DNA of 53,417 nt. Origin: Lysobacteraceae bacterium NML07-0707. GTDB taxonomy: Bacteria > Pseudomonadota > Gammaproteobacteria > Xanthomonadales > Xanthomonadaceae. The notes under the pieces were generated by a model. The model did not search any database and had not been told where the DNA came from. It saw only the letters and a program-made list of their open reading frames with translations. A program made the translations under genes and the position numbers. This document shows positions 5,612 through 20,973 of the stretch, piece after piece (position 1 is the first letter of the stretch; each line of letters opens with the position of its first letter). The stretch lies in contig NWQT01000043.1 in NCBI GenBank assembly GCA_002798295.1, positions 1-53,417 on the forward strand, given 5' to 3'.

Positions 5612-6502
5612 ATGAGTTCAACACTTTCTGCGGGCGCACGTTTCCGCGCCGCGCTGGCTGCCGAATCGCCCTTGCAGGTGATTGGCGCCATCAATGCCAA
5701 CCACGCCCTGCTTGCCAAGCGTGCAGGCTACAAGGCGATTTATCTCTCCGGCGGCGGCGTGGCGGCAGGCTCGCTGGGCTTGCCGGATTTGGGTATCAAT
5801 ACCCTGGAAGACGTGCTGATTGATACCCGCCGCATCACCGATGTCTGCGACCTGCCGCTCATGGTGGACATCGATACCGGCTTTGGCGCCTCGGCCTTCA
5901 ATATCGAACGCACGGTGAAGTCCCTCATCAAGGCCGGCGCCGCTGCCTGCCATATCGAAGACCAGGTGGGCGCCAAGCGTTGCGGTCATCGCCCCGGCAA
6001 GGAAATCGTCACTACTGGCGAAATGGTCGATCGCGTCAAAGCCGCGGCCGATGCCAAAACCGATGCGGACTTCTTTTTGATCGCGCGCACCGATGCCATC
6101 GCCGTGGACGGCGTGGAGGCGGCCATCGAGCGCGCCATCGCCTGTGTGGAAGCGGGTGCGGACGGCATTTTTGCCGAGGCGGCTTACGACTTGCCGACCT
6201 ACAAGCGTTTCGTCGAGGCGGTGAAGGTGCCGGTGCTTGCCAATATCACCGAGTTCGGCAAGACCCCGCTGTTCACCCGTGACGAGCTGGCCTCGGTGGG
6301 CGTGGCCATCCAGTTGTTCCCGCTGTCGGCGTTTCGCGCCATGAACAAGGCCGCCGAGGCGGTGTATGAAGCAGTGCGCCGCGACGGCACGCAGGCGGCG
6401 GTCATCGACAGCATGCAAACCCGCGAAGAACTCTACGAGCGCATCGGCTATCACGCTTTCGAGCAAAAGCTCGATGCGTTGTTTACCAAATCCAAATCCT
6501 GA
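5612..6502 (+). CDS. prpB: 2-methylisocitrate lyase
   Basis: A 296-residue enzyme of the isocitrate-lyase/PEP-mutase superfamily that splits 2-methylisocitrate into pyruvate and succinate, the last step of the methylcitrate cycle for propionate. The signature KRCGHRPGK holds the catalytic cysteine. MVDIDTGFG supplies the metal-binding aspartates, and FAEAAYDL and NITEFGKTP are family segments. ATG 5612 is preceded by AGGAG at 5602-5606; the frame extends upstream into rluA, but that start would be unsuitable. It is followed at 14 bp by prpC, forming a prpBC unit. No prpR-type regulator lies within the window. Confidence 0.95.
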
Positions 6503-6516
6503 AGCGGAGCCTCAAG

Positions 6517-7689
6517 ATGAGCAAGAAAAAAACCACCCCCGAAGCTGCTGCCCCGGCAGCCCCCAAGGTCAAGAAGTCGGTTGCGCTCTCCGGCACCGCT
6601 GCGGGCAATACCGCACTGTGCACCGTCGGTCGCAGCGGCAATGACCTGCACTATCGCGGCTATGACATTCATGATCTGGCCACCAAGGCCACGTTTGAAG
6701 AAGTCGCGCATCTCTTGGTACACGGCAGCCTGCCCAGCGCCTCGCAGCTGGCTGCTTACAAAACCAAGCTCAAGCGCCTGCGTGGCCTGCCGGTCATCGT
6801 GCAGGAGGCGCTGGAGCTGATTCCCGCCAATGCCCATCCGATGGACGTGCTGCGCACCGGTTGCTCGGTGCTGGGCACGGTATTGCCTGAACGCGACGGC
6901 CACCCGGAAGCGGAAGCGCGCGATATCGCCGACCGGTTGATGGCGAGCTTTGGCTCGATGCTGCTGTACTGGTGGCATTTCACCCGCAATGGCCGCCGTA
7001 TCGAGGTGGAAACTGATGATGACTCCATCGCCGCGCATTTCCTGCATCTTTTGCACGGCGAGCCGCCCAGCGCACTGCATGCCGAGGCGCTGGACAAGTC
7101 GCTGATTCTCTACGCCGAGCACGAGTTCAATGCCAGCACCTTTACCGCGCGCGTCATCGCCGGTACCGGCTCGGATATGTATTCCTGTATCACCGGCGCC
7201 ATTGGTGCGCTGCGCGGCCCCAAACATGGCGGCGCCAACGAAGTCGCCATGGACATCATCGCCCGTTATGGCAGTGCGGACGAAGCCGAGGCCGATATCC
7301 GCGCGCGCATGGAGCGCAAGGAAATCATCATTGGCTTTGGGCACCCGGTGTACACCATCGGCGACCCGCGCAACCCTATCATCAAAAAGCTCAGCAAAAA
7401 ACTGTGCAAGGACGGCGGCAACACCTTGCTGTTTGATGTCTCCGAGCGCATCGAAACGCTGATGATGGACACCAAAAAGATGTTCCCGAACCTCGACTGG
7501 TACAGCGCATCGAGCTATCACATGATGGGCGTGCCCACGCCGATGTTCACCCCGCTATTCGTCATCGCCCGCACTTCGGGCTGGAGCGCGCATGTCATCG
7601 AACAGCGCCAGGACGGCAAAATCATCCGCCCCAGCGCCAACTACACCGGCCCCGAAGACCGCGCCTTCGTACCGCTGGCCAAGCGCTGA
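6517..7689 (+). CDS. prpC: 2-methylcitrate synthase
   Basis: A 390-residue citrate-synthase-family enzyme that condenses propionyl-CoA with oxaloacetate to 2-methylcitrate. Family segments seen are [10 protein letters not shown], the [10 protein letters not shown] block and [14 protein letters not shown] with an active-site His. The size fits the short PrpC type, not the roughly 430-residue GltA. The first 25 residues are a Lys/Ala/Pro-rich extension of low complexity. GGAG lies at 6506-6509 ahead of the ATG. A strong terminator follows, so acnD, the next enzyme of the pathway 7.2 kb away, must have its own promoter. Confidence 0.94.
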
Positions 7690-7721
7690 GGCGCGCAGCC
7701 GGGTACAAGGCGATGCAAGAC

Positions 7722-7752
7722 AACAGCCCGGCATGTCCGGGCTGTTTTTTTT
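7722..7752 (+). terminator. Intrinsic terminator after prpC
   Basis: AACAGCCCGG (7722-7731) pairs perfectly with CCGGGCTGTT (7737-7746) around CATGT, and the stem runs into an eight-base T tract ending at 7752. This is a textbook rho-independent terminator for prpBC. On the minus strand it lacks a T tail, so it should not stop transcription of the convergent jet operon equally well. Confidence 0.92.
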
Positions 7753-7851
7753 CACACGGTCAATGCAATTCGCTATCTTCGGCAAGCCAAAGGCATTTCC
7801 CAGATTTTTTCAATGGCCGCCAGCCGCGCTTGATGGGCGGCATGTTCTTCA

Positions 7852-9126
7852 TCACTCACCAACACCCGCGGGCGCGGGTCTTGTGACAACGCCGCTGTCA
7901 CCGCTTGCACCACGGGCTGCGTCGTGCCGCGCGCAGCCGGGCAGTTCGGCATCCAGATGTTCTTGTTCCAGTGTCAATGGCTGTTGGCGCAGTGCCTGGG
8001 CGATTTCCGGCCAGCCAGCGCGTTCTGCCCAGTAGCACATGGCCTTGAGGGTGTCCGGTGCGGCGCGGTGCGCGCTGCTGCCGATGGCGGTGGGCAGGCT
8101 GCCTGGCGACATGCGCCAGGGCAGCAGGCGGCGTCCGGCTTGTTGGGCGCTGTGCGCCAGTACGCTGGCGATATGAAAACCGCCGCGGTCAATATCGCCC
8201 CAGTGATAAATACGGGCATCGGCGGGCAGGCAGCGCAGAATGCCGTCATAGGCGCGCCTCCAGGCAGGGGAGGGCATGCCGCCGGTGTACAGCAGCAGCG
8301 TGTTGGCATCGTGCAGCCGTGCGGCTTCATGAAAACTGCTCAAGTTTTCGATGCTGAGCAGGCAGCGCGCCGGGGTTTGCAATGCATGCAGCGATTCTGG
8401 CGGCACGCCCAGCCACGGGCGCAGCAAGGGCAGCTCGCCATATTGCAGATGCAAGGTTGCCGTGCCTGCCAGCAGTAATGGCAGCGGTTCTTTGCGCAAC
8501 CCCAGCGCGGCCCAGACATGGGTTTTTTCCAGTGCGCCGTGGGCTTGCAATTGCCCGCTGCCGATCAGGTCCAGCCAAGGAGTCAGGGTTTCCAGATATT
8601 TGCTGTCGGCAAACAGGCGGACGCTTTCTGCGCGCAGGCTGCGCTCGCGCGTGGGGTCTTGCTGGCAGTGAGCCACCACGCGCGCGGCATCGGCGATTGC
8701 GCCAGCGGCTTGCGCTGTGTGGGTGCGCACCCGGCCGCCAGCCCGCCATGTGGCAAGTACGTCTTCGAGTACCGGAAAACGTTCGCGCCAAGGCGTCAGC
8801 AGCGCCTGGGCTTGCGCGATCTGTGCTTGCAGCGGCTGGAGGCCGACAAAGTCTGCCAGGGCATCCAGGTCGGCCACGGTGATGCGTTCAAGGTCTTGTC
8901 CATCGCCACGGTGGCGGGCGCGCTGCACGCAGATTGCGCCAGCGCGTTCGGCCAGGGTGATATGCGCATGGAAGGCTTCAAGTTCTGGCAGCGTGCGCAG
9001 TGTTTGGTATTCGGCGCCATCGCGCTTGCCGGTCATGACCAGCGAGGCGGGTTTGTCGCTCGCGCGCAGCCGTGCGGCTTCGGCGCGCTTGAACAAACGC
9101 CGCAGCACTTTCTGCGCGGCGCTCAT
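7852..9126 (-). CDS. jetD: Wadjet protein JetD (toprim nuclease subunit)
   Basis: A 424-residue protein of the DUF2220 type. The C-terminal half has a toprim-like domain with SIENLSSFHE (Glu260) and YHWGDIDRGGFHI (Asp311 and Asp313), the acidic set of TopoVI/Spo11-like nucleases. In Wadjet systems JetD is the nuclease recruited by the JetABC SMC motor to cut small circular DNA, so it limits plasmids. ATG overlaps the jetC stop (ATGA, 9123-9126), and it is the last gene of the four-gene operon. The final 30 residues, rich in Ala, Gly and Arg, look unconstrained. It ends 99 bp from the convergent prpC terminator. Confidence 0.88.
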   Translation of the reverse strand: MSAAQKVLRRLFKRAEAARLRASDKPASLVMTGKRDGAEYQTLRTLPELEAFHAHITLAERAGAICVQRARHRGDGQDLERITVADLDALADFVGLQPLQAQIAQAQALLTPWRERFPVLEDVLATWRAGGRVRTHTAQAAGAIADAARVVAHCQQDPTRERSLRAESVRLFADSKYLETLTPWLDLIGSGQLQAHGALEKTHVWAALGLRKEPLPLLLAGTATLHLQYGELPLLRPWLGVPPESLHALQTPARCLLSIENLSSFHEAARLHDANTLLLYTGGMPSPAWRRAYDGILRCLPADARIYHWGDIDRGGFHIASVLAHSAQQAGRRLLPWRMSPGSLPTAIGSSAHRAAPDTLKAMCYWAERAGWPEIAQALRQQPLTLEQEHLDAELPGCARHDAARGASGDSGVVTRPAPAGVGE

Positions 9127-12100
9127 GTGGCTGCCTGTTGTTGACGGATGCGCTCAAGCGCTTCGCTCAGCAAATGCGGGTGCAAATCGAACTGGTCCGA
9201 TAGCAGCAGCTCGCGGGCGGCGGGCTGTATTTCGATGCGCTCGGCCTGGAGCAAGTCGTCATCGCGGAATAGTTCGATATAGCTTTCCAGTACGCCCGAG
9301 AGCGTGCCCTGTGCGGTATCGGGGGCGGCCAGAACCAATTGCAGCCCGAGCGAGCGCAGGTAGTTGGTCGTGGCGCGTGCGTTTTGCGCGTCGATCTTGT
9401 CGCCAAATTCGTCCAGCAAAATCAGGCCAATGCCGCCGGGATTGGCTTCGCTCTTGCCATAGGCGGCGGCCAGTGCGGCGCCGGCGATGACGTACAGCGG
9501 GGCGCGATGCTCGCCGCCGGAGCCCGAGCGCATGCGTTCGCTCAGCGTGCCGATGACGCGATCATCCTGCTGGATGCGCACTTCAAAGCGGAAGAAACGG
9601 CGGTAATCATCCAGCGCCGAGGCGTGGCGGGCAGTGGCAACATCGTCTTCGACAAGCTCGCGGAAGGCGGCCGGGACTTCGCCGGCGCTGCCGAACAGAT
9701 TGTCTTCTTCGCCCACGTCGGCGGCGCGTTTGATGAAGCGCGCCAGTTCTTTGTATTCGGGCACGACTTCGTAATGGAACTGGTAGCGCTCGTTGTTGGA
9801 AAACGGCGGGCTGCTGCGCAGGATGCGGTTCAAGGTATTGATTTGCTCGCGCAGACGCCCGAAGTTGTCGTTGAGGGCAGCGGCGACATTGGCGCGGAAG
9901 GTTTCCACTGCCGTGTCATAAGCCTGGCGGGCTTCATCCTGATAACGCACCAGTTCGGTATCGCGCAACTGGGACAGTTCGCGTTGCAGCAAGGCTTGCG
10001 CCGGTCGCCAGTCGCTGCTGTCAAAATCCAGTACAAGGCCGTGGTCGCGGCTGTATTGCGCCAGTGTGCTCCAGGCTTCGGGCAGCAGCTTGTCACGCTG
10101 CCGGTCGCTGTCTTCGGCGCGCCGTTCGCAACTGTTGCGGCGCTCTTGCAGTGATTGCACGCGCGTATCCAGCTCCTGGCGGTAGCGCTCGACCAGATTG
10201 GGATCGACATCGGCCGCGCCGAAGGCTTGCACGGCGTGGCGGATGATGTGTTCTTCCTGTTGCCGCAGCCCTTCAAGCAGGCGTTGATATTCCTGGTATT
10301 GGCGCTCGGCCACGGCCTGTTGGCCAATCAAGGTTTCCAGTTGTTTTTCGTGGGCATCGAGCCGCGTTTTCAACTGGCTGACCAGCTCGGACAGGCGCAG
10401 CAAATCCGGGTTCAGGCTGGCGGCGCGGCTTTCTTCGCCATGGCGATAGCGTTGCAGCGCCTGTTGATATTCATGGGCGCGCGCATGCAGCGCCTGTGCC
10501 ACGCCCTCGGCATCGGTCAGTCGCGCCAGCGCGCTGTGTTTGCTGCTGGCCAGGCTCAGTTTCGGGGCGAGTTCGCGCAGTTCGCTTTCGGCGGCCTGGA
10601 TGTCCGCTTGCAGCAGGCGCAGGCGGGCGCGGTTGTCATGGGCGCCGATTTTCAGCTCGCTTGCCGCAGGCAAACGCAGCCGTTCGATACTGCCGCCGCG
10701 CGCCAGAAGGCCGTCGCGGCTGAGCGCCTGAGGGCTGTTGACCAGTTCCGACTCGCTCTGCACGCAGCGCAGCTCGCCCAATTGGCGGCGCAAAAAAGCC
10801 AGGGCATCTTGATTAATGCCGGTCAGCAGGGCCGCCACGCTGCCAGCACGGGCAGGCTGCGCTCCGCGCGAGCGGCGCGCCTGACTTGCCAACGCCAGCT
10901 TCACGCCATAGACCGTGCGTGCGCCGGAGAGGCGGCGATACAGGGCGGTGGCGCGGGTTTCGTGTTCTTCGGGAATCAGCAGCGCTTCCACATTGCTGCG
11001 CAGATAGGCTTCGATGGCCGGTTGCCAGTGTTTGTCGCTGACTTCCACCAGGTCGCAGACCGGGCGGGCATCAATGCCTTCTTCGCGCAGATAGCTCATC
11101 AGGCGCGCGGTATCGGCGCTCAGCTCCGACTGCCCGGAAGCCAGGCGCTTTTTGTTTTGTTGTGCGCTGCCAAGGCGGTCGCTGGCTTTTTCTTGCGCCA
11201 GGCGCAGTTGGTGGACATGGATGCCGAGTTGTTCAATCAGCGGCGCTGCCGCAGCCAGTGCATCACGCGCTTGATCAAACAACTGCGGCAGGCTCCACGG
11301 TAGCGGTGCATGCTCCGGCAGCGCTTGCAGGGCTGCATGCCAGTTGTCCCAAAGCGAAGCGTGAGCCGCCGTAGCCTCTGCCGCCGGGGCAAGCGCGAAT
11401 GCTTGCAGGCTGCCGAGCTGGTCGCGGATAAAGGCGGTTTCGCGCAGCAGCTCGGCTCTGATGTGTTGCAGCCGTTCGCGGTCACGGGCGCTGATTTCAT
11501 CAAAATGCGCCTGTTCGCCGTAGCCTGTGCTGCCCTGCAATTGCGCCTGGGCGCGCTGCTGTTCTTCGCGGGTCAGGTCGCGCTGGCTGCGCTCTTGTTC
11601 CAGTTGCCGTTGCAGGCTGTCCAGTTCGATTTGCGCTTGCCGACATTGCGTTTGGGCAGCGTCGATTTGTTCGCTGTACAGGTCGCGTGCGTATTCGGCG
11701 GCCAGGGCGCGCGAAGATGCCGCGCGTACCGCCTGGGCGGCGATTTTGGCGTATTGCTGCTCTACGCCGCTGGCCGCGTCGATGCGTTGGCGAACTTGTT
11801 CAATGCGGTCGCGGATTTGCCGGAAGCTCTCCAGCAGGGCGCGGAACCGGGCGATGTCGGTGGGGCGATCTTCGGCCACCAGGGTGCGCACGAACAGGTC
11901 AACATCTTCAACCCGTTGCAGGTTCAAGGCATTGAGAAAAGCCTTGCGGTAGGCATTGACATCCGGGGTGGCGCTGCCGGAGCCGCGCAGCCGGAACAGC
12001 AAGTCCTTGACGAAACGTTCGGCGGCATTGTGCTGCTCGAACTTGCTGCCGGCTTGCTTGCAGCGGCGCGCAGCCATTTCCCGGAAGGTGCTCCAGGCCA

Positions 12101-12551
12101 GCGGCAGCTCTTTGCCTTTGATGCGCTCGATATGGTCATCCAGGCTCAGCGCCACGCCCGGCAGCAGGTACAAGCCGTGCAGGCGATGTTCGGCCTCGTC
12201 TGCCGAAGCGCCCAGCGCGATGCCGGCGGTCAGTGTTTGGTCGTTGTCGGTATCGCGGAACACCAGCGAGATGTAAGTGGTGGCAGTGCGTCGCTTGCGC
12301 CCCTCATCGCCACTGCGGAACACGCCCAGACAGTAATCGCGGATGCTGCGGGCGCGGTGGCTGCCGCCAGCCTGGGCATTGAAGCGGATGCGGCTGCGGT
12401 CGCCGCCCAGCAGCACGATTTGCAGCGCATCGAGCAGCGCGCTTTTGCCTGCGCCATTGGGGGCGATGATGGCGCTGGTGGCATCCAGTTCCAGGGTTTG
12501 CGCCTCGAACAGGAAAAACTGCACCAAATGGATACGTTCAAGCAGTTGCAT
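9123..12551 (-). CDS. jetC: Wadjet protein JetC (SMC/MukB-like ATPase)
   Basis: A protein of about 1142 residues with SMC architecture. Walker A is PNGAGKS at residues 31-37. Long helical coiled-coil arms occupy the middle, a hinge-like region lies near the centre, and the C-terminal head has the signature SGSGGEHRAP and Walker B LILLDEFGD. Known JetC/MksB proteins form a DNA-extruding motor with JetA and JetB that recognises small circular DNA. I chose ATG 12551 (frame open to 12644) because the family motif begins at once (LLERIHLVQFFLFEA) and GAGG lies six bases upstream. It overlaps jetB by 14 bases and jetD by four. MukB is excluded by the neighbours and the missing MukEF pair. Confidence 0.92.
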   Translation of the reverse strand: MQLLERIHLVQFFLFEAQTLELDATSAIIAPNGAGKSALLDALQIVLLGGDRSRIRFNAQAGGSHRARSIRDYCLGVFRSGDEGRKRRTATTYISLVFRDTDNDQTLTAGIALGASADEAEHRLHGLYLLPGVALSLDDHIERIKGKELPLAWSTFREMAARRCKQAGSKFEQHNAAERFVKDLLFRLRGSGSATPDVNAYRKAFLNALNLQRVEDVDLFVRTLVAEDRPTDIARFRALLESFRQIRDRIEQVRQRIDAASGVEQQYAKIAAQAVRAASSRALAAEYARDLYSEQIDAAQTQCRQAQIELDSLQRQLEQERSQRDLTREEQQRAQAQLQGSTGYGEQAHFDEISARDRERLQHIRAELLRETAFIRDQLGSLQAFALAPAAEATAAHASLWDNWHAALQALPEHAPLPWSLPQLFDQARDALAAAAPLIEQLGIHVHQLRLAQEKASDRLGSAQQNKKRLASGQSELSADTARLMSYLREEGIDARPVCDLVEVSDKHWQPAIEAYLRSNVEALLIPEEHETRATALYRRLSGARTVYGVKLALASQARRSRGAQPARAGSVAALLTGINQDALAFLRRQLGELRCVQSESELVNSPQALSRDGLLARGGSIERLRLPAASELKIGAHDNRARLRLLQADIQAAESELRELAPKLSLASSKHSALARLTDAEGVAQALHARAHEYQQALQRYRHGEESRAASLNPDLLRLSELVSQLKTRLDAHEKQLETLIGQQAVAERQYQEYQRLLEGLRQQEEHIIRHAVQAFGAADVDPNLVERYRQELDTRVQSLQERRNSCERRAEDSDRQRDKLLPEAWSTLAQYSRDHGLVLDFDSSDWRPAQALLQRELSQLRDTELVRYQDEARQAYDTAVETFRANVAAALNDNFGRLREQINTLNRILRSSPPFSNNERYQFHYEVVPEYKELARFIKRAADVGEEDNLFGSAGEVPAAFRELVEDDVATARHASALDDYRRFFRFEVRIQQDDRVIGTLSERMRSGSGGEHRAPLYVIAGAALAAAYGKSEANPGGIGLILLDEFGDKIDAQNARATTNYLRSLGLQLVLAAPDTAQGTLSGVLESYIELFRDDDLLQAERIEIQPAARELLLSDQFDLHPHLLSEALERIRQQQAAT

Positions 12552-13170
12552 CATCGGCCTCGTTGTCATCGGCGTTGTCGCCATCATCATCGCCGCTGTG
12601 TTGCGCCAGCCGTTGCAGCCATTGCTCGCCCAGCACTTCCACAATGGCCGGGCGGACTTGCAGGTGAAATGGCTGCGGGTCGTCCGGCTCGGATTCGGCC
12701 AGTCGGCATACCCCCCAGCGTTTGAGCGTGCGCGCCAGTTCCCGCAGTGCGCCGGTGTCGGGCATTTCGCGTCTGGTTAGCGCTTGATAGGCCTCTTGAA
12801 GCTCGGGCAGATCCACCGTCACCACGCCCTCGTCTTCCACCCGGCCTTGCCGCATCGCTTCGTCATAGCGTTGCCGCAGCACCAGCAACAGCAGCGTTTC
12901 GGCCAGGCTGACCGGCGCGCCTTCGCTGTGTGCGGGCAGGGCGATGAGATAGCGGTAATGCGCGTTGCGCTCCAGGCGGATGCCCAGCGGCGCCAGTGCG
13001 GCGACAAAATCATCGTAGTGATCTTCGACCAGATGATAGGCGTGGCGGCTGTGGCGGTCGCTGGCATACAGCGCCTGCTCGACTACCAGACGGTAGGCGG
13101 CGCGCTCGAAGTCCTGCACCGTGTACAGACCGTTGGATTGCTGGCTCAAGGTGTTCCAACTGCGTTTCAT
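12538..13170 (-). CDS. jetB: Wadjet protein JetB (MksE-like kleisin-associated subunit)
   Basis: A 210-residue protein fitting the DUF4194/JetB (MksE) family: two winged-helix-like halves, with SLAETLLLLVLRQRYDEAMR in the middle and a C-terminal RELARTLKRWGVCRL segment. It ends in a very acidic tail (about 188-210). In Wadjet, JetB is a KITE-type subunit that bridges the JetA kleisin and the JetC motor. ATG overlaps the jetA stop (ATGA at 13167-13170) and its 3' end overlaps jetC, implying coupled translation and balanced subunit supply. The identification leans on both sequence style and position. Confidence 0.85.
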   Translation of the reverse strand: MKRSWNTLSQQSNGLYTVQDFERAAYRLVVEQALYASDRHSRHAYHLVEDHYDDFVAALAPLGIRLERNAHYRYLIALPAHSEGAPVSLAETLLLLVLRQRYDEAMRQGRVEDEGVVTVDLPELQEAYQALTRREMPDTGALRELARTLKRWGVCRLAESEPDDPQPFHLQVRPAIVEVLGEQWLQRLAQHSGDDDGDNADDNEADDATA

Positions 13171-14624
13171 GGATGGGTTCCGGTTTTGGGGGCGGGCGCG
13201 GCGCTGCGGCGCACGATGCGAAAGCGCGGTGCGCGCAGGTAGCCGTTGTCTTCGCGTTCGCCATCAAGCAGTTCTACCCGGTAGCCGCGCAGCAGGCGGC
13301 TGATCGGGTCTTCGCGGCGCAGGCCGCCAATGCGCTGGCTGCGCAGCGCCAGGGTCAGCAGGGTCTGATAGGCGCGCAGGTCTTCGATGCTGGCAATGGA
13401 TAGCGCCGCCGAGTTCACTTCGGCATTGTCCGCCAGATGGCGGGCGACATAGCGCGCCATGTATTCAGCCGTGACCAGACGGGCGCGCTTGATGCGTCGC
13501 AGCAGCGCCAGCCGCGCCAATTGCTCGGGCGTGGGCGCGGCAGTGGCATTGGCGGTGCGCGGAATCGGTTGCGGCTTTTGCCGGGGAGCACGCAGGCGGG
13601 CTTCATCCATCAGCGCGCCCGGCGCTATCGGCAGCCGCAATTCATGTGCCGGGACATGCTGGACAGCGCGGCAGGCGTGCCGCAACAGGATGTCGAGCCG
13701 ATCCGGCGCGCGCAGGCGGTAATCAAGAAACGCCAGCGCCCGGCGATTGGCCTGGCGGATATCTTCATCCAGCCGCGAGAGATATTCGTCAATGCGCTCG
13801 AGCTCGTGCAAGCGGCGCAGGCTGCGCGCCAAACGTTGCCCGGCGCGTTCGCGGTCGCCTGCAAACAAGTGTTCGGCATACCAGGCCAGCAGCGCCTCGC
13901 GGCGCTCGCCGTACTCCAATTGCTGCACCATCGAGATGATGGCGCTGCGCCGCGCCAGCGGGTGATCGGCTTTGTGCAGCTCGGCATAGTCGCCGATGAA
14001 AAGCTTGCTGACATAGCGCTCGAACCATTGCCGGGCAAATTGTGCGGTCGATTTGGCGCGGCTTAATTCCGGCATCAAATCGCGCACTTGCAGGCTCATC
14101 GAAGACAGCGACACCAGCAGGCGGCGGGAGAGGTCGGCAGCCTCGTCCAGCGCATCGCCAGCGGCCTTGCCCTCCATGACATCGTTCAGTTGTGCCTGAA
14201 TCGAGCGCATCCGGGTGGAAACGAAGGTCGGGCCGTTTTCGGTGAACTCCAGCAGCAGCGCAAGCAGCTCCTGTACTACCCGCGGCATCTGCACCATTTC
14301 ACGCGCGCCGATGCGCTCCTGGCGCAACCAGCCGGCATGCCGGAAGCGCTCGTAGATAAGACCGGCGCGTACCGGCAGCGGCGTATCCAGAGTCTGGCCG
14401 TCCTCGTCCTCCCAGGGGTCGTCGGCCAACAGATAGCGCTCAATGGCTGCGGTAATTTCGCGCCGGGGCAGGCCGGTACTTGGCGGTAATGGTGCGTCCG
14501 GGCCAAAAAACTCATCGAACAAGCGGCATAACAACAGCCAGTAATGCGCCCGATTGGCAGAAGCCAGCGGCCCGAACAGGCCGCTGGGCAGCACGGAAAA
14601 AAGTGTCGGCGTGGTGGTGGCCAA
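13167..14624 (-). CDS. jetA: Wadjet protein JetA (MksF-like kleisin subunit)
   Basis: The first gene of the Wadjet operon, 485 residues from the start chosen here. It begins LFSVLPSGLFGPLASANRA, as JetA proteins of the PF18982 type do, and continues mostly helical, which fits the kleisin role of linking the JetC heads. It does not look like the DUF3375 JetA of type I systems; type II is my tentative subtype. I chose TTG 14624 because GGAG lies five bases upstream and the conserved start follows directly. An ATG at 14762 would add 46 Ala/Arg-rich residues with no ribosome site. It is divergent from acnD, so the promoters share 14625-14846. Confidence 0.82.
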   Translation of the reverse strand: MATTTPTLFSVLPSGLFGPLASANRAHYWLLLCRLFDEFFGPDAPLPPSTGLPRREITAAIERYLLADDPWEDEDGQTLDTPLPVRAGLIYERFRHAGWLRQERIGAREMVQMPRVVQELLALLLEFTENGPTFVSTRMRSIQAQLNDVMEGKAAGDALDEAADLSRRLLVSLSSMSLQVRDLMPELSRAKSTAQFARQWFERYVSKLFIGDYAELHKADHPLARRSAIISMVQQLEYGERREALLAWYAEHLFAGDRERAGQRLARSLRRLHELERIDEYLSRLDEDIRQANRRALAFLDYRLRAPDRLDILLRHACRAVQHVPAHELRLPIAPGALMDEARLRAPRQKPQPIPRTANATAAPTPEQLARLALLRRIKRARLVTAEYMARYVARHLADNAEVNSAALSIASIEDLRAYQTLLTLALRSQRIGGLRREDPISRLLRGYRVELLDGEREDNGYLRAPRFRIVRRSAAPAPKTGTHP

Positions 14625-14846
14625 GCCCGCTCCAAAGTTCGAGCCAATGCCCGTTTCGGTGGATATTTTCGCAGATAAGCGCGCTGCCCTCAGCAGGTTT
14701 TGTGGCGCGGCAGAGGGGCGCTCCAAAACCCGATCGCTGCGCCTTGGCAGCGGCAGCGCCATTGCTGGCTTGGCAGCTTATTGCAAAGCGCGGGCGGCAG
14801 GGCGCGCTAAAATCCGCGCTTCTCATCCCAGCCCGACGCCAGAGAC

Positions 14847-17459
14847 ATGAACACCGCTTTCCGCAAACCCCTGCCCGGCACTTTACTTGAATGGTTCGAC
14901 GCCCGTGAGGCAGTCGAGGCGATTGAGCCGGGTGCCTGGGTGCGTCTGCCCTATACCGCGCGCGTACATGCCGAGAATCTGGTGCGGCGCGCGGAGCCTG
15001 CGCGCTTGAATGATTACCTGGGGCAGTTGATCGAGCGCCGCCGTGACCTGGATTTCCCGTGGTTTCCGGTGCGGGTGGTCTGCCATGACATTCTCGGGCA
15101 GACGGCATTTGTGGACTTGGCCGGTTTGCGCGATGCCATTGCCGAGGCCGGTGGCGACCCGGCGCAAATCAATCCGGTGGTGCCCACGCAATTGATTGTG
15201 GATCACTCGCTGGCGGTGGAAGCGCCGGGCTATGACCCGGAGGCCTTTGCCAAGAATCGCGCGATTGAAGACCGCCGCAATGCCGACCGTTTCCATTTCA
15301 TCGACTGGTGCAAGCGCGCTTTCGGTAATGTCGAAGTGATTCCGCCCGGCAACGGCATCATGCACCAGATCAATCTGGAGAAGATGTCGCCGGTGGTGTA
15401 TGTGCAGGATGGCGTGGCCTTTCCCGATACCTGCGTCGGTACCGACAGCCACACCCCGCATGTCGATGCGCTGGGGGTGATCGCCATTGGCGTCGGCGGC
15501 CTTGAGGCCGAGAACGTGATGCTGGGGCGCGCCTCGTGGATGCGCCTGCCGGATATCGTCGGCGTGGAGTTGACCGGCAAGCCGGCAGCGGGCATCACCG
15601 CCACCGATATCGTGCTGGCGCTGACCGAGTTCCTGCGCGCCGAGCGCGTGGTCGGGGCGTATCTGGAATTCTTTGGCGAGGGCGCGGCGCATCTGACCAT
15701 TGGCGATCGCGCCACCATCGCCAATATGACGCCGGAATACGGCGCGACGGCGGCGCTGTTCTATATTGATGCGCAAACCCTGGACTATCTGCGCCTGACC
15801 GGGCGTGAAGAAAGCCAGGTCAAACTGGTGGAAACCTATGCCAAGTCCGCCGGACTATGGGCGGATGATTTGGCGACTGCCGAATACGAGCGCGTATTGC
15901 GCTTTGATCTGGGCAGCGTCACCCGCACGCTGGCCGGCCCCTCCAACCCGCATCGCCGCTTGCCGCTTGCCGCGCTGGCTGAGCGCGGCATTGCCGATAC
16001 TGAGAAGCTCGCCGCCGCGCGCGCCGAAGAAGCGGCCGGGCAATTGCCCGATGGCGCGGTCATCATCGCCGCCATTACCAGCTGCACCAATACCTCCAAC
16101 CCGCGCAACGTGATTGCCGCAGGGCTTTTGGCGCGCAATGCCGTCAACAAGGGACTCACGCGCAAACCCTGGGTGAAAACCTCGCTGGCGCCCGGCTCCA
16201 AGGCAGTCGAGCTGTACCTGCAAGAGGCCGGCCTGTTGCCGGCACTGGAGCAGCTCGGCTTTGGCGTTGTCGCCTTTGCCTGCACCACCTGCAACGGCAT
16301 GAGCGGCGCACTGGATCCGGCCATTCAAAACGAAATCATCGCGCGCGACCTGTACGCCACGGCAGTGCTCTCTGGCAACCGCAACTTTGATGGCCGCATC
16401 CACCCTTACGCCAAGCAGGCCTTCCTGGCCAGCCCGCCGCTGGTGATCGCCTATGCCATTGCCGGAACGATGCGTTTTGATATCGAAAAAGACGTGCTCG
16501 GCGTGGATGCTGAGGGCAATGAAGTGCGCCTGAAAGACATCTGGCCAAGCGATGCGGAAATCGACGCGGTGGTCAAGGCCAGTGTCAAGCCCGAGCAATT
16601 CCGTGCCGTGTACGAGCCGATGTTCAAACTGCATCTGGACAGCGGCGAGCAGGTCAGCCCGTTGTACGAGTGGCGACCGCAAAGCACCTATATCCGCCGC
16701 CCGCCGTATTGGGAAGGCGCATTGGCGGGTGAGCGCACGCTCAAGGGGATGCGCGCGCTGGCGGTGCTGGGCGATAACATCACCACCGACCATCTCTCGC
16801 CCAGCAACGCGATTTTGCCCAGCAGCGCCGCCGGTGAATACCTTGCCAAAATGGGCCTGCCGGAGGAGGACTTCAATTCTTATGCGACCCATCGCGGCGA
16901 CCATCTCACCGCGCAGCGCGCCACCTTCGCCAATCCCAAGCTCATCAACGAAATGGCCGTGGTCGATGGCGAAGTCAAACAAGGCTCGCTGACCCGGCTG
17001 GAGCCGGACGGCACCGTGATGCGCATGTGGGAGGCCATCGAAACCCATATGCAGCGCGGCCAGAACCTGATCATCATCGCCGGTGCCGACTACGGTCAGG
17101 GCAGCTCGCGCGACTGGGCGGCCAAGGGCGTGCGTCTGGCTGGCGTGGAAGCGATTGTGGCCGAAGGTTTCGAGCGCATCCACCGCACCAACCTGATCGG
17201 CATGGGGGTGTTGCCGCTGGAGTTTCTGCCCGGCGAAAGCCGCAAGACTTACGGTATCGACGGCAGCGAAACCTTCGATGTCACCGGCGAGCGCCAGCCC
17301 GGCGCGGAACTGACCCTCATCATCCACCGCCGCGACGGCACCAGCGTGCAGGTGCCGGTGAAGTGTCGCCTGGACTCGGACGAGGAAGTCTCGATCTACG
17401 AGGCCGGCGGCGTGCTGCAACGCTTTGCCCAGGATTTTCTATCCGCTGAGGCGGGCTGA
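14847..17459 (+). CDS. acnD: Fe/S-dependent 2-methylcitrate dehydratase AcnD
   Basis: An 870-residue aconitase-family enzyme. Iron-sulfur ligands sit in ITSCTNTSNPRN and FACTTCNGMSG, and the swivel domain has YGQGSSRDWAAKG. AcnD converts 2-methylcitrate to 2-methylaconitate, replacing PrpD, and needs PrpF to make an isomer that AcnB-type aconitase can use; prpF lies downstream at 19792, which supports AcnD over AcnA. The opening segment TLLEWFDAREAVEAIEPGAW also fits AcnD. It lies 7.2 kb from prpC, with the reversed jet operon between them, so it must be transcribed separately. A TAAAAT at 14808-14813 is a candidate -10. Confidence 0.94.
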   Translation: MNTAFRKPLPGTLLEWFDAREAVEAIEPGAWVRLPYTARVHAENLVRRAEPARLNDYLGQLIERRRDLDFPWFPVRVVCHDILGQTAFVDLAGLRDAIAEAGGDPAQINPVVPTQLIVDHSLAVEAPGYDPEAFAKNRAIEDRRNADRFHFIDWCKRAFGNVEVIPPGNGIMHQINLEKMSPVVYVQDGVAFPDTCVGTDSHTPHVDALGVIAIGVGGLEAENVMLGRASWMRLPDIVGVELTGKPAAGITATDIVLALTEFLRAERVVGAYLEFFGEGAAHLTIGDRATIANMTPEYGATAALFYIDAQTLDYLRLTGREESQVKLVETYAKSAGLWADDLATAEYERVLRFDLGSVTRTLAGPSNPHRRLPLAALAERGIADTEKLAAARAEEAAGQLPDGAVIIAAITSCTNTSNPRNVIAAGLLARNAVNKGLTRKPWVKTSLAPGSKAVELYLQEAGLLPALEQLGFGVVAFACTTCNGMSGALDPAIQNEIIARDLYATAVLSGNRNFDGRIHPYAKQAFLASPPLVIAYAIAGTMRFDIEKDVLGVDAEGNEVRLKDIWPSDAEIDAVVKASVKPEQFRAVYEPMFKLHLDSGEQVSPLYEWRPQSTYIRRPPYWEGALAGERTLKGMRALAVLGDNITTDHLSPSNAILPSSAAGEYLAKMGLPEEDFNSYATHRGDHLTAQRATFANPKLINEMAVVDGEVKQGSLTRLEPDGTVMRMWEAIETHMQRGQNLIIIAGADYGQGSSRDWAAKGVRLAGVEAIVAEGFERIHRTNLIGMGVLPLEFLPGESRKTYGIDGSETFDVTGERQPGAELTLIIHRRDGTSVQVPVKCRLDSDEEVSIYEAGGVLQRFAQDFLSAEAG

Positions 17460-17494
17460 CAGCTACATGCGAGACTTGCTCTCGATTTATGCCA

Positions 17495-17516
17495 AATTAT
17501 GATAAATTTCATAATT
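17495..17516. promoter_or_regulatory. AT-rich palindrome upstream of the ATPase gene
   Basis: AATTATGA (17495-17502) and TCATAATT (17509-17516) form a perfect eight-base inverted repeat with six bases between. It is embedded in an AT-rich patch between the GC-rich acnD end and the ATPase start 22 bp later. It may be an operator or promoter region; the binder is unknown. Confidence 0.45.
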
Positions 17517-17538
17517 ATGACTGATGGTGAGGCTCGTG

Positions 17539-18654
17539 ATGGGTAGTCAGGACAGTATCCGCTATTTCCCGAGGAAGGATTTGGTCGAGACGATTCATGG
17601 TCTGCTGACCTCGGGTCTTACCCATGCGCTGACAATGTTTGCAGGAAGGCGCATGGGGAAAACCCTCTTTGTTAAACAGGAACTGCTACCCGCAGCAGAA
17701 ACATGGCGCTGGCGTGCTTATTACATCGACTTATGGGTGCGGCGTGATAACCCTGAGCTTGGGTTGGTCGAAGAACTTGAGGGTTTTGTAGAACAGAAGC
17801 AAACACTGAAAAAGCCAGATAAGCTGCTGGCAAAAGCCGGTTATGGTAGTACCGGCATTCAAGCTGAATGGAGCGGTGCATCTAACCCTGAGATTGACCT
17901 CCAAGGTCGCTTGAAGCGAGCGATGCGAGCTCTGGTTGGACAGGGAAATGAATCAGTATTGTTGGTTGTGGATGAGTTTCAGACGTTGGCGGCAGGAAAA
18001 CACGAGGACTTTGTTTCCACTTTCCGCGCGACGATGCAGGAACTACAGCCGCAGCTAAAACTGTTTTTTACCGGCTCATCGCGCGATGCATTGAACAGTA
18101 TGTTCCGAAAACGCAAAGCACCTTTGTTTGAGTCAGCAATGCCGTTGCCGCTGCCGGAGCTTGGTGCCGATTTTGTCGAAGACCGTGCAGTGATATTTCA
18201 AGAAATCACAGGGAAGTCGATGGATGCCGCCGAGCTGGGCAAAGTTTTCAACAAAATTGCTCGCGTTCCGATGTATCTCAACCAGATTGTGCTGCATACC
18301 ATGGTGAGTCTAACCGCTGATCCGTGGGAAGGTTTTAGCCTCTGGCGAAAAGCACTGGGTGACCAAGGCGCACACGAACAATGGGTGAAACTCAAGCCAG
18401 TGGATAAGGTCATTGTGGGACACTTGGCCAGCAAGCAGCCAATAAGCCTTTTCAGTGCCGAGTTCAGCGCAAAGGTTACAAAGCTGCTCGGAGAGGAAAA
18501 GCCGTACAGCCCGCAGCGGATTCAAACAGCCGTCAATCGAATGGTGAAAAACATGGTGCTTGCTCCAAAAGGAGAGGCGGGCGAGTATGAAATTGAAGAC
18601 CGCGCCCTGGAAATTTATGTCGCTGCACGGATGCAAGGCTTTCTGATCAATTAG
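17539..18654 (+). CDS. AAA-type ATPase of unknown role
   Basis: A 371-residue P-loop ATPase. The Walker A-like loop AGRRMGKT (35-42) resembles the GPRRxGKT form of archaeal-type/ORC-like ATPases. Walker B is VLLVVDEFQTL near 155, followed by a sensor-like LFFTGSSRDALNSMF and a C-terminal winged-helix-like part (about 290-365). Such proteins occur as accessory, sometimes mobile or defence-related, genes, but no function can be assigned. ATG 17539 is chosen because GTGAGG sits six bases upstream; the frame is open to 17524. Base composition is clearly more AT-rich than in acnD and prpF, which suggests acquisition. No nuclease or other partner is fused or adjacent. Confidence 0.75.
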   Translation: MGSQDSIRYFPRKDLVETIHGLLTSGLTHALTMFAGRRMGKTLFVKQELLPAAETWRWRAYYIDLWVRRDNPELGLVEELEGFVEQKQTLKKPDKLLAKAGYGSTGIQAEWSGASNPEIDLQGRLKRAMRALVGQGNESVLLVVDEFQTLAAGKHEDFVSTFRATMQELQPQLKLFFTGSSRDALNSMFRKRKAPLFESAMPLPLPELGADFVEDRAVIFQEITGKSMDAAELGKVFNKIARVPMYLNQIVLHTMVSLTADPWEGFSLWRKALGDQGAHEQWVKLKPVDKVIVGHLASKQPISLFSAEFSAKVTKLLGEEKPYSPQRIQTAVNRMVKNMVLAPKGEAGEYEIEDRALEIYVAARMQGFLIN

Positions 18655-18695
18655 GAATTTTGACGGGGATTGCGCATGAAAGATACGGGGAAGCC

Positions 18696-19091
18696 ATGCG
18701 GCAGAGCGAGCTGAGCCCGGCAGATATTGCGCTGCTGATATCGCTGGAAGAGGCCATGTGGCGAGCGCAAACCCGGTTCGATCAGGCGTTCATGGAGCGG
18801 CACTTGGCTGCCGACTTCATCGAACTGGGGCGCTCCGGGCGTATCTATGACCGGGCGCAGTGTCTGGCCGCTGCGCCGCAGCCCATCAATTGCCGCTTGC
18901 CGTTGTCCAATCTGCGCGTACGTCTTGTGGCTGCCGATACCGTGCAGCTGCTGTACGACAGCTGCGTGACACAAGTCACGGGTGAGCTTGAGTACACGCA
19001 CCGCTCCTCGCTGTGGACGCGCACGGCGGATGGCTGGGTCATGCGCTTTCATCAGGGCACGCCGTTCGTGCCGGAGGTGCCTGACGCATGA
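18696..19091 (+). CDS. DUF4440/NTF2-like small protein
   Basis: A 131-residue protein that fits the NTF2-like (DUF4440) fold: an N-terminal helix around EEAMWRAQTRFD, a FMERHLAADFIELGRSGRIY turn, then strands ending TRTADGWVMRFHQGTPF. Members are cytoplasmic pocket proteins of mostly unknown ligand; no catalytic residues are obvious. ATG 18696 follows GGGGAAG at a good distance, and the frame upstream reaches a TTG at 18660 just after the ATPase stop. It lies 41 bp after the ATPase gene on the same strand and may share its transcript, but a functional link is not shown. Confidence 0.7.
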   Translation: MRQSELSPADIALLISLEEAMWRAQTRFDQAFMERHLAADFIELGRSGRIYDRAQCLAAAPQPINCRLPLSNLRVRLVAADTVQLLYDSCVTQVTGELEYTHRSSLWTRTADGWVMRFHQGTPFVPEVPDA

Positions 19092-19183
19092 GGCGGTGCT
19101 GCTTATAGCCCTCGCGCCCGGCTTGTAGCGCGGTAAGGCAGGGCGTAGCCTTGCCATGGCAATCTTTGGCATAGGTGTGCGAT

Positions 19184-19441
19184 ATGGCGACCATGAATAT
19201 TTCCCTGCCCGATGAACTCAAGGCATTTGTCGATGAGCGGGTGGCTGCGCAAGGTTATAGCTCCAGCAGCGAGTTTCTGCGCGAGTTGATTTGCCAAAGC
19301 CGACGGGAAAAGGCTGCTGCGTTTTTACACCAGCTGATTGCCGAGGGGATGGCTTCCGGGCCTGCCGAGCCGGTTACGGCAGAAACCTTTGCGCAGATGC
19401 GCAAAGAATTGCGCGAGCGGATGATGCGTGAAGCCGGTTGA
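19184..19441 (+). CDS. parD: ParD-like ribbon-helix-helix antitoxin
   Basis: An 85-residue protein opening ATMNISLPDELKAFVDERV, the strand and first helix of a ribbon-helix-helix DNA-binding domain, followed by YSSSSEFLRELI. The C-terminal half is charged (RREKAAAFLHQL and QMRKELRERM) and would wrap the toxin. This is the ParD/CopG antitoxin pattern; the complex normally represses its own promoter. The stop falls inside the start region of the ParE-like gene (14-base overlap), as usual for this family. A GTG nine bases upstream is an alternative start. Confidence 0.85.
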   Translation: MATMNISLPDELKAFVDERVAAQGYSSSSEFLRELICQSRREKAAAFLHQLIAEGMASGPAEPVTAETFAQMRKELRERMMREAG

Positions 19442-19754
19442 GTGGCGACTGCAGGCACGCTGCTATGCTGCGGAAATAGCGTATTGCTATGCGCCAGAAG
19501 CGGGCTTGGCGTTGGGCGAGGCGTTTTTGGCAGAGGTGGATGCCACGCTGGAGCGCATGGCAGCACATCCGGCCACCGGCGCTCATCGTCATGCCGGTTG
19601 CGCGCCTGATTTGCCCGCCGCACTGCGCTTTGTGCCGTTGAAGCGTTTTGAGCATCATCTTGTCTATTACATTGGGCTGCCCGATTGCGTCGAAATCATT
19701 CGCATCTGGCATAGCGCACGCGGGCTAGCGGCGTTGCTGGAAACGCCGAGATAA
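19428..19754 (+). CDS. parE: ParE-like toxin
   Basis: A 108-residue protein of the RelE/ParE superfamily: two N-terminal helices (WRLQARCYAAEIAYCYAPEA and EAFLAEVDATLERMAAHPATG) followed by strands FEHHLVYYI and VEIIRIWHSARG. The terminal H-S-A-R corresponds to the HxxRD-like end of ParE proteins. ParE toxins poison DNA gyrase; the RelE mRNA-cleavage alternative is less likely because RelE catalytic residues are not evident. The start is GTG 19428, overlapping the antitoxin. It may stabilise the accessory block between acnD and prpF. Confidence 0.83.
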   Translation: MKPVEWRLQARCYAAEIAYCYAPEAGLALGEAFLAEVDATLERMAAHPATGAHRHAGCAPDLPAALRFVPLKRFEHHLVYYIGLPDCVEIIRIWHSARGLAALLETPR

Positions 19755-19791
19755 AAGCCGCATATCTTTTGCAATTTCAGGAATCCTTACC

Positions 19792-20973
19792 ATGAGTCAG
19801 CATCAACAACGCCGCATTCCCGCCACCTATATGCGCGGCGGCACCAGCAAGGGGGTGTTCTTTCGCCTTGGCGATTTGCCGCCCGAGGCGCAGCAGCCGG
19901 GGCGCGCGCGCGATGCCTTGCTGATGCGGGTGATCGGCTCGCCCGACCCCTACGCCCAGCATATCGACGGCATGGGCGGGGCGACCTCCAGCACCAGCAA
20001 ATGCGTGATCATCTCGCCATCGACCCGTCCTGGCCATGATGTCGATTATCTCTACGGCCAGGTGGCGATTGGCGAGGCGTTTGTCGATTGGAGCGGCAAT
20101 TGCGGCAACCTCTCCAGCGCGGTCGGGCCGTTTGCGATTGCCCATGGCATGCTTCCGGCTGAGCGTCTCAAGGATGGCCAGGTGGAAGTGCGCATCTGGC
20201 AGGCCAATATCGGCAAGACCATCATTGCCCATGTGCCGGTGCAGGATGGGCAGGTGCTGGAACTGGGAGATTTCATGCTCGATGGCGTGGCCTTTCCGGC
20301 CGCGGAAATCGTGCTGGAGTTCATCGACCCTTCTGATGATGGCGAAGATGGCAGTGCAATGTTCCCGACCGGCAACGTCGTCGATACCCTGGAAGTGCCC
20401 GGTGTCGGCAGTCTGGAAGCGACGATGATTACGGCCGGTATCCCGACGGTGTTCATTGATGCGGCAGCGATTGGGCTCACTGGCAGTGAGCTGCAAAAGG
20501 ACATCAACGCCGATGCCGCGCGGCTTGCACAGTTCGAGGCGATTCGTGTGGCCGGGGCGCTGCGCATGGGGCTGATTGAAGATGCCAGCGAGGCTGCCAA
20601 GCGTCAGCACACCCCGAAAGTGGCCTTTGTGGCGCCGCCTGCCGATTACACCGCTTCCAGCGGCAAGACCATCCGCGCCGCCGACATCGACCTGCGGGTG
20701 CGGGCGCTGTCCATGGGCAAGCTGCATCACGCCATGATGGGCACGGCCTCGGTCGCCATCGCCACCGCTGCCGCCGTGCCGGGGACGCTGGTGAACCGTG
20801 CAGCAGGGGGCGGCAGGCGTGAAACCGTATGCTTTGGGCACCCCTCCGGCACCTTGCGCGTCGGTGCGGCAGTGGAAAATATCGGCGGGCAGTGGACAGT
20901 GAAAAAAGCGGTGATGAGCCGCAGCGCGCGCGTCCTGATGCGCGGTGAGGTGTTTGTGCCGTCTGCGGGTTGA
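19792..20973 (+). CDS. prpF: 2-methylaconitate cis-trans isomerase PrpF
   Basis: A 393-residue enzyme with the diaminopimelate-epimerase-like fold of PrpF. Recognisable segments are PATYMRGGTSKGVFF, GMGGATSSTSKC, NCGNLSSAVGPFAI and the C-terminal CFGHPSGTLRVGA. PrpF isomerises the 2-methylaconitate made by AcnD so that aconitase can hydrate it to 2-methylisocitrate, the PrpB substrate. AGGA precedes the ATG. In many genomes prpF directly follows acnD; here four accessory genes intervene, so its promoter is either its own or that of the toxin-antitoxin pair. Confidence 0.94.
   Translation: MSQHQQRRIPATYMRGGTSKGVFFRLGDLPPEAQQPGRARDALLMRVIGSPDPYAQHIDGMGGATSSTSKCVIISPSTRPGHDVDYLYGQVAIGEAFVDWSGNCGNLSSAVGPFAIAHGMLPAERLKDGQVEVRIWQANIGKTIIAHVPVQDGQVLELGDFMLDGVAFPAAEIVLEFIDPSDDGEDGSAMFPTGNVVDTLEVPGVGSLEATMITAGIPTVFIDAAAIGLTGSELQKDINADAARLAQFEAIRVAGALRMGLIEDASEAAKRQHTPKVAFVAPPADYTASSGKTIRAADIDLRVRALSMGKLHHAMMGTASVAIATAAAVPGTLVNRAAGGGRRETVCFGHPSGTLRVGAAVENIGGQWTVKKAVMSRSARVLMRGEVFVPSAG

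Follow-up and report, generated by a model that had tools for sequence, protein, structure and literature searches.

A complete Wadjet type I operon between prpBC and acnD in Lysobacteraceae bacterium NML07-0707

We analyzed a 53,417-nucleotide stretch of DNA (the window; contig NWQT01000043.1, assembly GCA_002798295.1) from the 2.39-Mb, 54-contig genome of Lysobacteraceae bacterium NML07-0707 (G000), in which the anti-plasmid system Wadjet, encoded by jetABCD, lies among the prp genes of the methylcitrate pathway. We consider it likely that this is a complete, selectively maintained Wadjet I of a small-genome Lysobacteraceae species, that it stands between prpBC and acnD because that interval is often rearranged, and that the ancestor shared with Lysobacteraceae bacterium NML08-0793 had the jet genes at this place. 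An earlier note on the same DNA had proposed that a core catabolic locus was newly split and that control might be shared across the split. The underlying observation is sound and the system is of a known kind, an ordinary Wadjet I; the proposed novelty was mostly not borne out.

The gene order at 5612–20973 is prpB, prpC, a hairpin, jetD-jetC-jetB-jetA on the minus strand, acnD, an ATPase gene, and prpF (Table 1). Family models and open frames thus agree with the order prpB-prpC-terminator-jetDCBA (opposite strand)-acnD given in the earlier note, which had also described all four jet genes as intact and overlapping. Indeed, the four genes are adjacent and co-directional with overlapping ends, in the order jetA-B-C-D; all four frames are open, and no frameshift was found in any of them. 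The match of JetC to PDLC00513 covers profile positions 1-1138 of 1140, beginning at residue 32 of the long open reading frame (ORF); this ORF reaches 12644, the family match begins at 12551, and the start used in searches was 12578. The likely start of jetA is a TTG, its open frame extending to 14762. The best PADLOC models are JetA1, JetB1, JetC1, and JetD1, the JetC2 models being far weaker, and matches ranked below the best in the family searches were set aside as less similar members of one fold. By these sequence matches, the system is assigned to Wadjet type I (JetABCD, alias MksBEFG) in complete form, and not to type II or III.

Table 1. Features of the locus in window coordinates
Feature	Position	Strand	Evidence or remark
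SoFic (Fic/DOC) gene	3698..4786		upstream of rluA-prpB; below NCBIfam cut-off
prpB, methylisocitrate lyase	5612..6502	+	ATG at 5612; NCBIfam PRK11320/TIGR02317 above cut-off
prpC, 2-methylcitrate synthase	6517..7689	+	NCBIfam PRK12351 above cut-off
Terminator-like hairpin 3' of prpC	7722..7746	+	10 pairs, 7 G-C, then T run
Decayed copy of dnaQ (Pol III epsilon) 3' end	7784..7888	-	85% DNA identity; residues 189-228 at 68%
jetD, Toprim nuclease	7852..9126	-	PADLOC PDLC00529 9.8e-142, residues 1-396, profile 2-393 of 394; PF09983 above cut-off
jetC, SMC-like ATPase	9123..12551	-	PADLOC PDLC00513 1536 bits, E 0; SbcC_Walker_B and AAA_29 above cut-off
jetB, KITE subunit	12538..13170	-	PDLC00498 1.7e-97, profile 1-208 of 211; DUF4194 PF13835 above cut-off
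jetA, kleisin subunit	13167..14627	-	PDLC00456 1.5e-224, from residue 48 of long ORF; PF18982 JetA above cut-off
Divergent jetA/acnD gap	14628..14846		alignment with jet-less relatives
acnD, Fe/S-dependent 2-methylisocitrate dehydratase	14847..17459	+	TIGR02333 above cut-off
AAA-type ATPase gene	17524..18654	+	weak PADLOC PDC-S27 match, 5e-7; GC 51%, between acnD and prpF
prpF, 2-methylaconitate isomerase	19792..20973	+	TIGR02334 above cut-off

Passages of PMC10586767 and PMC10123090 present JetABC as a probable structural maintenance of chromosomes (SMC) complex that extrudes loops and recognizes small circular DNA, which JetD cuts. By analogy, JetABC of the window would load on DNA, extrude loops, and sense small circles; JetD would then cut these, restricting incoming plasmids. 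Judged from sequence, every part that this mechanism requires appears to be encoded, and we predict that the window Wadjet restricts incoming plasmids. JetD residues E260, D311, and D313 are invariant in 28/28 aligned sequences and, from the Toprim fold, are the presumed metal-binding acids. The predicted JetD model has a predicted local distance difference test (pLDDT) score of 87.8, with residues 400–424 below 50. Its nearest folds are Corynebacterium glutamicum MksG (8b7f) and Pseudomonas aeruginosa JetD (7til), then Topo VI A (1d3y), with E values of 3.7e-8 to 1.7e-7 and whole-query template modeling (TM) scores of only 0.26-0.33. When PDB chains were searched by phmmer with JetC or JetD as the query, no match was found at E 0.001. 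Compared with Wadjet I of C. glutamicum, P. aeruginosa PA14, and Escherichia coli GF4-3, the window system has the same four subunits, jetABCD order, and overlaps, and the same Toprim nuclease fold and acidic residues; it differs in being distant in sequence, in the foreign 28-residue tail of its JetD, and in its propionate-gene neighbors. In Xylella fastidiosa, the four jet genes are mostly all present, according to passages of PMC9148166.

The age of the jet block was assessed by comparison with NML08-0793 (G064, locus L041), the nearest named relative by JetC, in which the jet genes occupy the same site between prpC and acnD. JetA, JetB, JetC, and JetD of the two genomes are 91, 88, 86, and 70% identical; NML08-0793 differs in having a VapB-like antitoxin gene and a PIN-domain gene (L041 14695-15448) between jetD and prpC and in lacking the ATPase gene between acnD and prpF. 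Synonymous divergence (dS) was 0.43 for jetA, 0.58 for jetB, 0.57 for jetC, and 0.84 for jetD; for the flanking acnD, prpB, and prpC it was 0.52, 0.62, and 0.44, so that, except for the higher value of jetD, the jet genes resemble their neighbors. Ratios of nonsynonymous to synonymous divergence (dN/dS) were 0.11, 0.11, 0.16, and 0.23 for jetA to jetD: the jet genes, jetD included, are under purifying selection. At third codon positions, the jet genes have a host-like GC content (GC3) of 0.70–0.76 (surroundings, 0.72–0.78). Because of the flank-like dS and the host-like GC3, we conclude that the jet block is not recent. No near match was found by megablast among 72,556 plasmid records, and a plasmid origin was rejected on this ground. 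No tRNA gene is present in the window, and of the 33 families of direct repeats at 7600–15000, none of the 20 largest pairs the jet edges (no search was made for integrase or transposase genes); tandem repeats are absent from positions 1–25000.

The AcnD/PrpF-type methylcitrate set (prpB, prpC, acnD, and prpF) is complete by NCBIfam equivalog models above cut-off, and the genes do not form one cluster: the jet genes split prpC from acnD, and the ATPase gene splits acnD from prpF. We recorded prpC–acnD spacing in a genus sample of 17 genomes, window genome included. The two genes lie within 8 kb of each other in six genomes and apart in nine; two drafts gave no call (G066, where acnD is at a contig edge and a full prpC was not found, and G067, where prpC is cut at an edge and 9 kb upstream of acnD is without prpC). 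The six close pairs differ in what stands between: the jet genes in the window genome and NML08-0793, a fadH-like gene in G073 and G061, an ion-channel gene plus fadH in G060, and a single ion-channel ORF in G074, where the gap is 0.5 kb and without jet. Here "fadH" is a name given by eye to an old yellow enzyme (OYE)/FadH-type flavin oxidoreductase with Pfam above cut-off and no NCBIfam equivalog above cut-off. Where the genes are apart on one contig, the distance is 86 kb (G063), 628 kb (G062), or 633 kb (G065); in the remaining six (G046, G068, G069, G070, G071, and G072) they are on separate contigs, with at least 4 kb upstream of acnD lacking prpC.

In other genera, prpC adjoins acnD without jet in G047, G034, and G229; together with G074, the gaps are 0.04-0.5 kb. 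The earlier note had suggested looking among relatives for such a jet-less pair. It exists in these four genomes, but in the nearest jet-less relatives, G063 and G072, the two genes are apart, and direct adjacency as the immediate pre-insertion state was not seen there. The picture of a prp locus split by Wadjet stands in so far as the jet genes do lie between prpC and acnD, but nine of the 17 genus genomes keep this pair apart. The prp locus appears to have been loose already before the question of jet arises. The jet genes are an established tenant of an often-rearranged stretch of chromosome rather than newcomers to an operon that had until then been whole.

A trace of such rearrangement lies beside jetD. 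The last residues of JetD, about 397 to 424, are not native; read in a different frame, this tail runs into the decayed copy of the dnaQ 3' end; the intact dnaQ of the window genome is elsewhere (G000:C51:29006-29719). In G063 and G072, dnaQ (above the NCBIfam cut-off in G063) directly follows prpC, and upstream of acnD there is a PP2C-like phosphatase gene (Pfam above cut-off, Stp1 model just below); in the window genome and NML08-0793, dnaQ and PP2C adjoin each other elsewhere. The outermost bases of the window fragment are nearer to the prpC-linked dnaQ of G063 and G072 than to the dnaQ of its own genome, and the NML08-0793 genome gave no second dnaQ match at E 1e-8. The arrangement points to a rearrangement involving dnaQ that separated prpC from acnD in the jet-less G063 and G072, and that would have left the fragment joined to the tail of jetD. 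In the order that we propose, a piece of dnaQ would have been copied next to jetD, and later recombination between the two dnaQ copies may have flipped the DNA between them in the lineage of G063 and G072, jet being lost as well. The fadH gene, which occupies the prpC–acnD gap in G073, G061, and G060, would have gone from the window genome. By segment distances, G063 is a mosaic, nearer the window genome at dnaQ–fabI and nearer G072 at prp, acnD, and PP2C. The history of the locus appears to have involved exchange between species.

The earlier note had further offered the divergent jetA/acnD gap as a possible shared control point, for which we found no support. A simple scan detected no sigma-70-like site in it, and only about 60 bp upstream of acnD are common to the jet-less relatives. 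With up to 3 mismatches allowed, the PrpR palindrome described in Xanthomonas citri (passages of PMC12153269) gave two chance-level matches, both far from the prp genes, and none close to one. A functional link between Wadjet and propionate is not needed, and a full-text literature search found no paper joining Wadjet with the methylcitrate pathway. Downstream of prpC, hairpins of the type seen there show no excess over shuffled sequence; a similar one is also present 3' of prpC in G063 and G072.

Several observations weigh against a maintained plasmid-cutting system of long standing at this site. JetD has lost its native C-terminal end, and it is the subunit least conserved relative to NML08-0793 (71% identity, with the raised dS given above). 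Five residues past its DxD motif, position 318 is His only in the window and Arg in all 31 other aligned JetDs. JetC is present in only four of the 17 genus genomes, that of the window included, close to the window protein in NML08-0793 and distant (35–37%) and elsewhere in the genome in G074 and G046, so that most of the genus is without a close jet. When 49 related loci were surveyed with a profile built from 32 JetDs, no JetD followed JetC in 17, from several genera, L044 keeping a remnant; a role beyond plasmid cutting is therefore possible. Finally, segment distances disagree on sister relations, leaving the order of events unsure.

How the jet genes first came to this spot bears on two explanations, both compatible with the old, maintained Wadjet I favored here. 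A parallel arrangement exists in Pseudoxanthomonas. In L042, L043, L044, L081, L116, and L163–L166 (L042/L164, L044/L162, and L081/L163 each being the same genome twice), jetABC(D) is directly followed by fadH on the same strand, and prpC and prpB start on the other strand 2.4–2.6 kb further on, or about 7 kb in P. dokdonensis (L081, a locus that ends inside prpC). Order and orientation (jetABCD-fadH-prpC-prpB) are as in the window, with JetC 69-74% identical; the differences are that fadH is retained and that acnD does not neighbor jet over the DNA read. By coordinates, jet lies beside fadH in 8/12 JetC-bearing Pseudoxanthomonas genomes. Six of the eight were read, and jetD is lost or broken in three of these six, the other two genomes being known by coordinates only. 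Over all 49 JetC-related loci, prpB, prpC, acnD, or prpF occurs within the examined DNA in six, including Arenimonas caeni L059 (1-9409), where the end of acnD and prpF precede jetA by 5.9 kb.

Under the first explanation, which we hold tentatively and place just on the doubtful side, jet arrived a single time, in the ancestor of the four-species clade, at a spot that repeatedly takes up defense genes, and the Pseudoxanthomonas and Arenimonas parallels reflect a shared hot spot. Nearby gaps do hold other such genes, namely SoFic and the PDC-S27-like ATPase in the window and the VapB and PIN pair in NML08-0793, and the A. caeni jet near prpF falls outside the JetC clade of the window; the lack of a tRNA and, among the 20 largest direct-repeat families, of an edge repeat at the site argues the other way.

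Under the second, which seems to us a reasonable but distinctly doubtful proposition, jetDCBA already stood by fadH and prpBC in the common ancestor of the genus and Pseudoxanthomonas, most lineages having since lost or swapped jet and the window's having lost fadH. The shared order and orientation of prpB-prpC-...-(fadH)-jetDCBA speak for it, as does the JetC tree, in which a single clade of 17 rows, the window among them (support, 99), takes in all 10 prp-linked rows (L081 and L163 being the same genome). However, the other seven loci of that clade are unlinked (from Stenotrophomonas, Luteimonas, and others), the tree implies at least two changes of the linked label with 31 unlabeled rows uncounted, L059 (unlabeled in the tree) lies outside the clade, and jet is missing from the site in four genus members whose prpC and acnD are close together. 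Pseudoxanthomonas PrpC, moreover, is only 71-73% identical to that of the window (86-89% within the genus). PrpB has the opposite pattern, 90% identical to Pseudoxanthomonas PrpB and only 64-67% to several PrpBs of the same genus (L042, L094, L095, and L106 were compared), and these contrasting identities point to a mosaic prp operon. The position beside prp could be ancient and inherited once, or it could come from a hot spot that the lineages have in common.

The same Pseudoxanthomonas site also accommodates another SMC complex. Fifteen of the 23 Pseudoxanthomonas genomes without a JetC match at 1e-100 were examined, and in 11 of these (L147–L154, L156, L158, and L161) the gap between fadH and a zinc-binding alcohol dehydrogenase family gene (TIGR02817 above cut-off) contains a three-gene SMC cassette oriented opposite to fadH; the cassette is absent from this gap in L155, L157, L159, and L160. 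Three further genomes of the coordinate comparison lay outside the JetC search. The SMC ATPase of the cassette is clear, and the 235- and 440-residue partners match no Pfam or NCBIfam family, JetB3 being the only hit, a weak one (E 0.033), for the smaller partner. We call the cassette MksBEF-like from its gene order and size, which we take to be those of Mks complexes. A single Pseudoxanthomonas gap therefore holds either jetABC(D) or an MksBEF-like three-gene cassette.

From this one could argue that JetABC is an exchangeable chromosomal SMC complex in Lysobacteraceae, trading with an MksBEF-like complex at the fadH site while JetD is gained and lost independently, and that the window holds a condensin locus that has retained its nuclease and not a mobile defense island; we regard this as rather unlikely. 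We find it less probable still, indeed improbable, that JetABC serves the window genome mainly as a chromosomal condensin with JetD as an optional extra. Such a role would fit the cassette swap and the 17 JetD-less loci (L044, L048, L058, L060, L064, L066, L067, L069, L070, L072, L073, L075, L080, L081, L083, L086, and L089), all of which have jetA and jetB except the short contig L060. Decay of the JetB N terminus was not seen in these loci; its DFER stretch is kept in 15/16 with JetB, L086 having DFEQ. A jetD-less Wadjet I is also described as conserved in Stenotrophomonas maltophilia (passages of PMC11680222), so JetD absence was partly known. Against it, the window jetD is kept under purifying selection.

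That a recent insertion of a 7-kb defense operon cut an intact prpB-prpC-acnD-prpF cluster, as the earlier note had implied, is very improbable, even with the short jet-less prpC–acnD gaps in G047, G034, G229, and G074 and the single operon described for prpB, prpC, acnD, and prpF in X. citri (passages of PMC12153269) in its favor: the presence of jet in NML08-0793 at flank-like dS largely refutes it, and host-like GC3, the lack of a tRNA and (among the 20 largest direct-repeat families) of an edge-pairing repeat, and the separation of prpC from acnD in 9/17 genus genomes all stand against it.

The established Wadjet I favored here adds one well-preserved system, with a worked history of its site, and a caution that a defense operon found within a metabolic locus has not necessarily inserted there recently. 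The lead most worth following is the exchange of SMC complexes at one Pseudoxanthomonas site. If true, replacement between JetABC(D) and another SMC complex, together with the repeated absence of JetD, would allow the relation between a plasmid-cutting SMC and a housekeeping condensin to be tested directly in Pseudoxanthomonas and Stenotrophomonas.

What probably entered the locus recently is the low-GC ATPase gene rather than jet. Its GC3 is 0.54, against 0.70-0.78 around it; it has no match in Pfam or NCBIfam, and none between acnD and prpF in NML08-0793 or G072. In G063, the gene at this position is broken into two frames. Relatives occur on 111 plasmid records, all at <60% identity, and no direct repeats of at least 20 nt were found in 14600–20000, which spans the gene. 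SoFic was not found at its place in G072 or NML08-0793, and the two genes together are common to the window genome and G063 only. The earlier note had mentioned neither of them, nor the dnaQ remnant on the tail of jetD. In G063 (L109), 112 nt from the start of rluA are directly duplicated around SoFic, the only sizeable repeat found.

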